From NCBI RefSeq assembly GCF_000622365.1, contig NZ_JASC01000014.1, forward strand, positions 930,001 to 994,000: DNA of 64,000 bases. Direction: 5' to 3'. The notes beneath the pieces were generated by a model. That model saw only the letters and a list, made by a program, of their open reading frames with translations. It did no database searches and had not been told where the DNA came from. Made by a program: the position numbers and the translations under genes. Positions 5,156-11,963 of this stretch are shown here, one piece after another. Positions within the stretch are counted from its first letter, which is position 1; each line of letters begins with the position of its first letter. The stretch is from Sulfitobacter noctilucae. GTDB lineage: Bacteria > Pseudomonadota > Alphaproteobacteria > Rhodobacterales > Rhodobacteraceae.

Positions 5156-10165
<5,010 letters not shown>

Positions 10166-10192
10166 TCGATAAATCCCACTTTGTTCACGAAT

Positions 10193-10207
10193 GTTCCTAA
10201 AAAGTTC
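10193..10207 (+). promoter_or_regulatory. LexA-binding SOS box, GTTC-N7-GTTC
   Basis: A perfect match to the alphaproteobacterial LexA operator (GTTC-N7-GTTC, spacer CTAAAAA). Further GTTC copies at 10183 and 10217 and a GAAC at 10231 flank it, although only the central pair has the correct 11-base period. It lies 28 bases after the recG stop and 55 bases before the start of the 42-residue gene, a typical operator position. The consensus is established knowledge; regulation here is inferred. Confidence 0.72.
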
Positions 10208-10261
10208 TTTACAGATGTTCTGAAAAATGAGAACAAAGAGGTAACAAAGACGGAGGTTCAG

Positions 10262-10390
10262 ATGACAACGCTCAAGACACTCAAATCCATCGCGACACGC
10301 TCTCAAGAGACGTTGTTGCAGGACAGTATCGGTGCGGCAGCGCTGGTCGTGATCTTGGTTGTCGGTTTGTACCTGCCTGCTTTTGTTTGA
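10262..10390 (+). CDS. Small single-span membrane protein (42 residues), predicted SOS-regulated
   Basis: The 42-residue protein starts with a polar, basic stretch (residues 1-20, TLKTLKSIATRSQ) and ends with a membrane span (about 24-40, GAAALVVILVVGLYLP) that runs almost to the C-terminus. The ATG at 10262 has a strong GGAGG five bases upstream. A TTG at 10181 in the same frame would place the SOS box inside the gene, so it is unlikely. I do not recognise a functional family. The layout, an SOS box plus a tiny inner-membrane protein, is like SidA of Caulobacter, but no sequence match is claimed. Confidence 0.75.
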   Translation: MTTLKTLKSIATRSQETLLQDSIGAAALVVILVVGLYLPAFV

Positions 10391-10424: not shown

Positions 10425-10567
10425 GCATCCGTCCCAACAGATGCTGCCGTCTGACACTGCCTGTCCATTCCGGCACCCGGGGGTAACACCCCAAAGGCTA
10501 AACTGGGTCCCACATGTGAGTTGCTTTCCTCGCGCCGCCATTCTCTGGAATGTGCGGCGCTTTTTTT
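10425..10567 (+). ncRNA. Structured 3' region; possible 3'UTR-derived small RNA
   Basis: After the 42-residue gene stops at 10390, transcription should continue about 175 bases to the terminator. The stretch contains hairpins at 10425-10444 (GCATC/GATGC), at 10480-10492 (GGGGT, AAC, ACCCC) and the terminator stem. It has no open frame with a ribosome site on the plus strand. A long structured 3' UTR ending in a strong U-tract is how many Hfq-bound small RNAs arise. I do not recognise a known RNA family, so this is a weak call. Confidence 0.3.
10532..10567 (+). terminator. Intrinsic terminator, plus strand
   Basis: Stem GCGCCGC/GCGGCGC with inner CATTC/GAATG and loop TCTG, followed by seven T residues (10561-10567). 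It ends the transcript that starts at the SOS-box promoter. The T-tract overlaps the stop codon of the minus-strand chemoreceptor gene. Confidence 0.88.
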
Positions 10568-11963
10568 ATGAGTATGTGTAGGCGAGGCGAAGACCACCCC
10601 AATGGCGTCCTGCCACTATGATCGGCGCTGACAGATCCTTCATCGTGGCAAACTGGCCGCCGCCCATATCACGTCTGTAGACCTGAAGAAGGAAGGGGGA
10701 TGTATTACGGCCCGCTTTCAGACCGACGCGATCATCGAAAATACGCCGATTGCGCGCATTGGCCATGTTCCAAACCGGATCATTGCGCTGCGGTTGAGAG
10801 AACTTCCTATTGTGCGTCGGCAGATACCCGTTGGTGTCGACAGCCGCGCAAAAGACGATCGATGGATCGTACTCAAGCGCCGCTTCCTGAAATTCGGGCA
10901 AAAACCGATCCAGAAATTCGGTGGAGGCGGTCATCATCTGCTGTGGGTCGGTCCCTGGAATGGGGGTGTAATTTCGGTCAAACAGGGCCGCCATGCTGAT
11001 GGCACCTTTGGCTATGGCGTCGTCCAGCCGTGTTGAGATTGCTTTGGCCGTGCGTTGCACCATCACGATAAAATGCGCGTCACTGGTTTCACCGCCCATG
11101 CCAGCACTAAGTTGTACGATCCTTTCGGATTGATCGATCAACTTGTGCACCCGCGAATGGGTGTCGTTGATGCCCTGCATGGTCATCTGCACGGCCTGGT
11201 CGATATGTTTAACGGCAGGGGTCAGGCGTCCAAAACTTTCTGCCATCCGAGCGGATTGTGCTGCGATCTGTGTGCTTTGCGCGTGCTCTTCGCTGATCGT
11301 TGCTTCCATGCGGCTCAATGCGGTGTCGGTCTCGCCCGATTGGGACAGCACCACACTCGCGCTTTCGGCAACCGTCTGCGCTTCCTTGCCCAACTCGCTG
11401 ATCCAATTCGTCAAATTTTCGATGTTTTCTGTAATCTTGGTCGCCGCCGTGCGCGTTTTTTGGGACAAATCGTTGATCGCATCGGCAACCACAGCGAAAC
11501 CGCGGCCGGCGTCACCAGCGCGGGCGGCTTCGATTTTGGCATTGATCGCCAAAGTGTTCACCTGAGCGGCAATCGAAGCAATTTCGCTGTTGTTCTCGGT
11601 GACCGCGCGCAGGGTGTCGCTAACCGTGTCTGTCCGGTCCCGCACCGCATTGACCCAAACGGCAACTTCGCGGGTCTTGTCGCCCACATTGCGCACAAGC
11701 ATCACAGATGTTCTCACATCCCGCCGGGACTTGTCAGCAATTGCGCTTAACCCTTTGACCAGATGACTAACATCGGTGTTCGCCTCCGTCATATCACGCG
11801 CACAGGCATTCAAAGCGCTGAGCGCGCCACGTTGTTCTTTGGCCTGTTGATCAACCAAATCCAGAAAACCGGCAATATCAACAATTTCGAACCCAAGTTC
11901 GGAGGCTGTTTTGGCCAAAGCGTCCAGATTTTTCGTACCGTCGACCGGAAACTGCGCTGACAT
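10566..11963 (-). CDS. Soluble methyl-accepting chemotaxis protein with C-terminal sensor-like domain
   Basis: The 465-residue protein has no membrane span. The N-terminal two thirds are a coiled-coil chemoreceptor signalling domain with the hairpin tip [22 protein letters not shown] near residues 138-160, which contacts CheA and CheW. The last 150 residues form a domain ending in DLSAPIIVAGRHWGGLRLAY, a pattern seen at the end of PAS/Cache-like sensor domains in similar receptors. So sensing is probably cytoplasmic and C-terminal, the reverse of the usual order. No che genes are adjacent. The ligand is unknown. Confidence 0.85.
   Translation of the reverse strand: MSAQFPVDGTKNLDALAKTASELGFEIVDIAGFLDLVDQQAKEQRGALSALNACARDMTEANTDVSHLVKGLSAIADKSRRDVRTSVMLVRNVGDKTREVAVWVNAVRDRTDTVSDTLRAVTENNSEIASIAAQVNTLAINAKIEAARAGDAGRGFAVVADAINDLSQKTRTAATKITENIENLTNWISELGKEAQTVAESASVVLSQSGETDTALSRMEATISEEHAQSTQIAAQSARMAESFGRLTPAVKHIDQAVQMTMQGINDTHSRVHKLIDQSERIVQLSAGMGGETSDAHFIVMVQRTAKAISTRLDDAIAKGAISMAALFDRNYTPIPGTDPQQMMTASTEFLDRFLPEFQEAALEYDPSIVFCAAVDTNGYLPTHNRKFSQPQRNDPVWNMANARNRRIFDDRVGLKAGRNTSPFLLQVYRRDMGGGQFATMKDLSAPIIVAGRHWGGLRLAYTYS

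Follow-up and report, generated by a model that had tools for sequence, protein, structure and literature searches.

A LexA-type motif between recG and a very small gene

Does a LexA-type motif that lies between recG and an open reading frame (ORF) of 42 codons mark a gene of the SOS response, and what might the product of such a gene do? The question is raised by a locus of Sulfitobacter noctilucae within a 64-kb stretch of DNA (64,000 nucleotides), here called the window. The upstream neighbour is recG (8051–10165, plus strand, an ORF of 704 amino acids), considered for context only. The small ORF (10262–10390, plus strand) encodes the protein P0001, MTTLKTLKSIATRSQETLLQDSIGAAALVVILVVGLYLPAFV, read below as a 42-residue, single-helix membrane protein from the ORF, its relatives, dN/dS and an AlphaFold model, and called the micropeptide. 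An earlier note had reported GTTC-N7-GTTC at 10193–10207, between the two genes, and a strong ribosome site ahead of the small ORF. Both are seen in the sequence. The motif is at these positions, between the end of recG at 10165 and the start of the ORF at 10262, and a GGAGG (10252–10256, plus strand) stands five nucleotides ahead of the ATG, with an SD-like core found in 124 of 134 homologues.

Downstream of the ORF, a 12-pair stem with one bulge followed by seven T (10532–10567, plus strand) folds at −21.1 kcal/mol. We regard it as a probable intrinsic terminator at which the transcript of the micropeptide gene can end; a consensus terminator scan of the locus did not list it. A convergent gene, chemoreceptor-like as named from its translation, occupies 10566–11963 on the minus strand. 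Jointly with the division-brake explanation given below, the reading of the locus as a single-gene SOS unit is one that we slightly favour.

The motif is conserved upstream of homologues

The window has a single GTTC-N7-GTTC where 1.86 are expected, and when its letters are shuffled 100 times, 84 of the shuffled versions contain one or more. The whole genome contains 105 copies, compared with 151 of the reversed pattern. In the window or the genome alone, the motif is not beyond chance, and from these counts a chance motif was a plausible explanation. Conservation across relatives lifts it far beyond chance. The exact motif is found upstream of 130 of the 134 homologues (108 of 110 loci, searched within 350 nt, and 22 of 24 loci, searched within 250 nt) but in only 5 of 1819 control stretches drawn from the first 110 loci, which rules out the chance explanation. 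The 134 homologues are every locus retrieved by a single-sequence search of the first 198 family genomes. The earlier note had itself staked its proposal on conservation of the box upstream of homologues, and on this point the proposal holds. A second set, of named loci (the best 80 of 230), has the box in 78 of 80. Six of these loci are identical to loci among the 134, and the two sets are not summed; once the six duplicates are removed, the box is present in 72 of 74.

The four homologues without the exact box are L040, which has none, L089, with one mismatch, and L309 and L313, in which it is degraded. In L040 (G157:C118), the lost operator array is accompanied by a C-terminal extension of the peptide, which looks like joint decay of gene and promoter.

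The same motif is associated with known SOS genes of this genome. On the minus strand, GTTC-N7-GTTC precedes the lexA match by about 33 nt and the recA match by about 110 nt, in agreement with the earlier assignment of the motif as an alphaproteobacterial LexA operator. It is also identical to the LexA motif of Caulobacter as described in PMC12700426. An extended form with three half-sites, GTTC-N6-GTTC-N7-GTTC, occurs at three places in the genome: the micropeptide promoter, a umuD-like gene and one site on contig C13. At the second of these (L350, G000:C14:459000-461000), the triple half-site is just upstream of the umuD-like gene (about 144 aa), behind which lies a umuC-like frame, both names being our reading of the translations. 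The three-copy array is thus shared with the umuD-like gene, and the full promoter module described below is found only at the micropeptide. As judged from these sequences, the micropeptide gene is very probably under LexA control.

Architecture of the promoter

A scan of positions 10170–10262 finds GTTC at 10183, 10193, 10204, 10217 and 10256, and GAAC at 10231. The first three GTTC copies form the tandem array GTTC-N6-GTTC-N7-GTTC, which we designate operator O1 (10183–10207, plus strand) based on its sequence and its conservation; the triple array is present in 114 of the 134 homologues. Pairs of GTTC in the first 110 loci are separated by 7 nt in 108 loci, by 6 in 98, by 17 in 98 and by 16 in 24, and each other spacing from 0 to 20 is seen in 0–6 loci. 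Pairs at spacing 17 join the first to the third half-site, and those at spacing 16 are due to a fourth half-site at N6, which is present in 22 of the 110 loci. In some loci (L032, L112, L298, L312 and L250) there are two overlapping GTTC-N7-GTTC pairs, with the extra half-site at 7 rather than 6.

Directly 3′ of the third half-site is a conserved TTTACA (10208–10213, plus strand), apparent in the position profile of 108 promoters. It is called −35-like by inference, because a sigma-70 consensus scan of the locus gave no promoter match. Exactly 23 nt past O1 lies GAAC-N7-TAAC (10231–10245, minus strand), a putative operator that we designate O2; this distance from O1 is kept to the nucleotide in 115 of 127 loci. 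GAAC-N7-NAAC is found in 126 of 130 loci, compared with 0 to 13 at spacings of 2–6 and 8–13, and in 6 of 130 the site at this position is a perfect GAAC-N7-GAAC. We take O2 to be a candidate second LexA operator, weaker, degenerate and reversed, that would lie over the −10 region. The consensus of the 108 box-aligned promoters (the box-bearing loci of the first 110) is TTTGTTC-N-CAAAT-GTTCTCAAAAAGTTC-TTTACA-N14-TGAGAACAAA-N4-CAACA. In this profile, the leader between O2 and the coding region is short and lacks conservation.

The earlier note had also described extra GTTC and GAAC copies flanking the box, and this description divides in two. The copies at 10183 (at N6 spacing) and 10231 (the start of GAAC-N7-TAAC) are genuine parts of the promoter because they are conserved across relatives; those at 10217 and 10256 are absent from the conserved profile.

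A search of 197 family genomes for a strict version of the promoter pattern, GTTC-N7-GTTCTTTAC-N8-24-GAGAACA, gives a single match apiece in 121 of them and no match to the reversed form in any. The strict pattern is present in 100 of the 134 fetched promoters. Matches beyond these promoters were inspected in G023 and G056, and both precede a small D-x-x-G peptide.

The small frame is a conserved protein

In 67 sequences of 42 codons (the window's own and those 66 of the 80 named loci with exactly this length), differences by codon position number 24,561, 12,194 and 51,586. Of 2211 sequence pairs, 1655 were used for dN/dS, and their median is 0.15, a rough ratio given that dS is near saturation; the other 556 pairs were left out as saturated or with dS of at most 0.1. 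The excess at third positions and the dN/dS rule out a spurious ORF, and the micropeptide frame is under purifying selection.

Conservation of individual residues was profiled over 109 relatives, with L040 left out. Asp21 is invariant (109 of 109), Gly24 and Leu36 are each kept in 108 of 109, and Pro39 in 105 of 108. Over residues 19–40, conservation follows the 100-degree period of a helix, a value reached by 0.6% of shuffles; since 13 angles were tried (120 degrees gave 4.3%), the 0.6% is modest unless 100 degrees was expected beforehand. Such a period fits what is expected of a docking helix.

The hydrophobic stretch comprises residues 22–38, and AlphaFold, run without an alignment, predicts one helix at 3–41 (mean pLDDT 84). 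Based on the sequence and this model, we read the micropeptide as a probable single-span membrane protein. According to the positive-inside rule, the basic side of a membrane protein stays inside. The basic residues of the micropeptide are in its N-terminal part and its C-terminus is uncharged, which suggests an N-in topology. Only about three residues follow Pro39.

The protein belongs to no family that we could identify in the collections searched. Pfam has no family for the window protein, and the 68 aligned relatives gave only weak single-member matches, taken as chance. NCBIfam, scanned with the window protein only, had no match, nor did the PDB (best E 6.9). Matches to PHROG families involved one or two members (best E 0.0089) and were likewise taken as chance. 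The phage, plasmid and viral collections contained no match to the micropeptide, and a phage, plasmid or viral origin was rejected on these grounds. An RNA gene was also considered. The only Rfam match at the locus is a sub-threshold one to Ysr141, antisense within recG (window 8893–9156, minus strand), which scores 27 bits where the gathering threshold is 196 and was taken as chance.

Distribution across the family and linkage to recG

With the single sequence as query, 134 of the 198 family genomes proved to contain the protein. A profile (A1) was then available from 68 relatives: its pool left out L040, L060, L113 and L118, and of 78 selected peptides 70 were used, less L082 and L032. With this profile the protein was found in 348 of 392 Rhodobacteraceae genomes, sampled at about one per genus (347 of 391 genera), and there was no match in the other 44. 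The best named relatives, among the matches listed, are from Sulfitobacter. In 385 alphaproteobacterial genomes, profile A1 found no credible relative outside the Rhodobacteraceae, the five credible matches all being within the family. Two class-level matches outside it, both at E 0.003, cover only short stretches of much longer frames (770 and 290 aa) and were taken as chance.

The C-terminus of RecG is encoded directly upstream, on the same strand, in 109 of 110 homologous loci. In the exception (L036, genome G108; also L348, G108:C27), the module and the gene are present, and the 7 kb of sequence retrieved contain no RecG. In G056 (L347, G056:C21), the module is on a different contig from recG and precedes a 38-residue D-x-x-G peptide; because this genome is a draft and the module lies close to the end of its contig, the case is weaker when taken alone. 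Together, G056 and G108 suggest that the operator module and the peptide gene move as one unit. The box belongs to the small gene, since the module accompanies that gene even at loci with no adjacent recG. A box that serves recG was considered and ruled out, given its position downstream of recG and its retention with the small gene in both genomes.

Genomes without a profile match were also inspected. In 20 of the 44, recG was matched in 15. Ten of these 15 recG loci have a box (seven GTTC-N7-GTTC, three only GAAC-N7-GAAC), and all ten have a hydrophobic ORF of 36–50 residues; D-x-x-G is present in six of these ten divergent peptides. The remaining five recG loci, including that of G056, have neither box nor hydrophobic ORF. 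At two loci, L259 and L260 (G090 and G033), only GAAC-N7-GAAC is present downstream of recG, before a hydrophobic ORF of 36–40 residues, which in L259 is without the D-x-x-G pattern. Extreme divergence or replacement are both possible in these cases.

Among recG loci from other alphaproteobacterial families, the box was found in none of 28 (450 nt downstream; one locus extended only 261 nt), these being the loci kept from 52 non-family genomes with a recG match. The two Rhodobacteraceae members in the same comparison have it.

Possible functions of the micropeptide

In the mechanism that we infer, LexA would bind O1 and O2, which flank and overlap the promoter, and the gene would be silent. 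Upon DNA damage, RecA-driven cleavage of LexA would release it. The product would be an inner-membrane peptide of roughly 40 residues with one span and its N-terminus inside. Its conserved face (Asp21, Gly24, Leu28, Leu32, Leu36 and Pro39) would dock on a protein in the membrane, for which the septal peptidoglycan synthase complex FtsW/FtsI/FtsN is the likeliest candidate, and the peptide would hold division until DNA repair is finished. Reasoning by analogy, division inhibition is the likeliest of the functions considered, and we lean towards a LexA-controlled, SidA-like division inhibitor. FtsW as the direct target is less likely than division inhibition itself. A match to SulA (PF03846) was found neither anywhere in the genome nor among the weak matches of the 68 relatives, and the genome would otherwise be without an SOS division brake of the kinds looked for.

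The most far-reaching version of this account can be offered only tentatively. It supposes that a single ancestral SOS checkpoint peptide, present in about nine-tenths of the sampled genera and equipped with a fixed two-operator LexA promoter for this gene alone, blocks septal wall synthesis by placing its helix face on FtsW and is the reason that loss of LexA stops division in these cells, as an independently evolved counterpart of SidA across the family.

The strongest alternative, which we nevertheless consider unlikely, is that the micropeptide, under LexA control, regulates a different membrane protein (a protease, a transporter, or an enzyme of respiration or lipid metabolism) to adjust the envelope after DNA damage, without a division block. 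The conserved helix face fits any membrane partner or self-association, and an SOS promoter and an invariant Asp would suit any membrane partner equally well; small membrane proteins are described as regulators of various processes (PMC11539335). However, the SOS-induced small membrane proteins treated in PMC4211646 and PMC13396833 act on division, with DinQ (PMC3567139) as a counter-example, and a regulator of this kind would leave a genome lacking SulA without the brake discussed above.

Next in standing, and also improbable, is a depolarising or dormancy peptide of the TisB/DinQ type, which under LexA control would lower the membrane potential and slow growth without binding a division protein. 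SOS control, small size and a single hydrophobic helix are what would be expected, and DinQ is reported to be an SOS-controlled toxic peptide with a single transmembrane segment (PMC3567139). Several features of the micropeptide speak against this reading. There are no charged residues inside the membrane span, Asp21 being at its edge, and unspecific insertion does not require that one face of the helix be conserved. The short, unconserved leader between O2 and the start codon leaves little room for control by a DinQ-like antisense RNA, and Rfam has no RNA at the locus except the sub-threshold match inside recG, although an antisense RNA of an undescribed kind may exist there.

Finally, it is very improbable that the array is an operator for a different regulator, or acts on recG or some other neighbouring gene, with the ORF incidental. 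Motif counts at or below chance in the single genome would be compatible with this, as would the statement that LexA appears to regulate recG in some alphaproteobacteria (PMC3323433). This reading is already contradicted by the strong codon-level constraint on the ORF and by the retention of the module with the ORF where recG is not adjacent, and the box is downstream of recG on the coding strand of the ORF and recurs at lexA, recA and the umuDC-like operon of the same genome.

Significance for the Rhodobacteraceae

The Rhodobacteraceae include the roseobacters, Rhodobacter and Paracoccus, and are major marine and model bacteria. Among the matches listed in our search of the open literature, the accessible texts describe no SOS division inhibitor for this family and contain no description of the micropeptide gene. 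The parts of PMC3323433 available to us predict a LexA regulon for Rhodobacter sphaeroides and Paracoccus denitrificans and name no such small gene. LexA sites are also predicted in Dinoroseobacter shibae (PMC6473078), whose supplementary tables may include the micropeptide site. Because Pfam and NCBIfam have no match for the protein, LexA regulon studies built on gene annotation would be likely to overlook it. The micropeptide appears to be a lineage-specific, SOS-induced small membrane protein that is apparently undescribed.

Through this gene, damage-induced division arrest in the Rhodobacteraceae becomes a directly testable question. If the division-inhibitor reading is true, the family would also provide very small, variable natural inhibitors with which to study how a membrane helix shuts off a septal wall synthase.

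Comparison with known systems

TisB of Escherichia coli is an SOS-controlled membrane peptide with a single helix. DinQ of the same species resembles the micropeptide in these respects (PMC3567139). DinQ, however, is a toxin paired with antisense RNAs, and the micropeptide locus has no sign of such an RNA or of a structured leader.

YneA of Bacillus, SosA of Staphylococcus and ChiZ of Mycobacterium are, like the micropeptide, small membrane proteins, and they are SOS- or damage-induced. Among SOS-induced small membrane proteins, SidA and YneA stop division at a late stage by way of FtsW, and late steps are also the target of SosA and ChiZ (PMC4211646, PMC13396833). The transmembrane helix of YneA binds transmembrane helix 7 of FtsW, and AlphaFold 3 places SidA, SosA and ChiZ on FtsW, which the authors describe as not of high confidence (PMC13396833). 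YneA and ChiZ have a periplasmic LysM domain, whereas the micropeptide has only the few residues after Pro39; this distinction is made by description and not by sequence. Of note, the YneA helix alone is sufficient for septal localisation and FtsW binding but does not block division, for which the LysM domain is needed (PMC13396833). A helix that binds without inhibiting, set beside a micropeptide with almost no periplasmic part, argues against the division-inhibitor reading.

The closest parallels are from Caulobacter. DidA is, like the micropeptide, small and single-span, and is a division inhibitor induced by DNA damage (PMC4211646). Unlike the micropeptide, it has 71 residues and is SOS-independent, being driven by DriD (PMC4211646). 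SidA of Caulobacter crescentus is similar to the micropeptide in belonging to an SOS regulon with the same motif (PMC12700426), and in being a very small inner-membrane protein of an alphaproteobacterium (PMC4211646). SidA has 29 residues and the micropeptide about 40, and the two are compared here by description rather than by sequence. Division inhibition has been demonstrated for SidA and is proposed for the micropeptide by analogy. SidA acts on FtsW, SidA and DidA block FtsW/I/N (PMC4211646), and a Caulobacter lexA deletion filaments owing to sidA (PMC12700426). With only 29 residues, SidA indicates that a helix can suffice for division inhibition.
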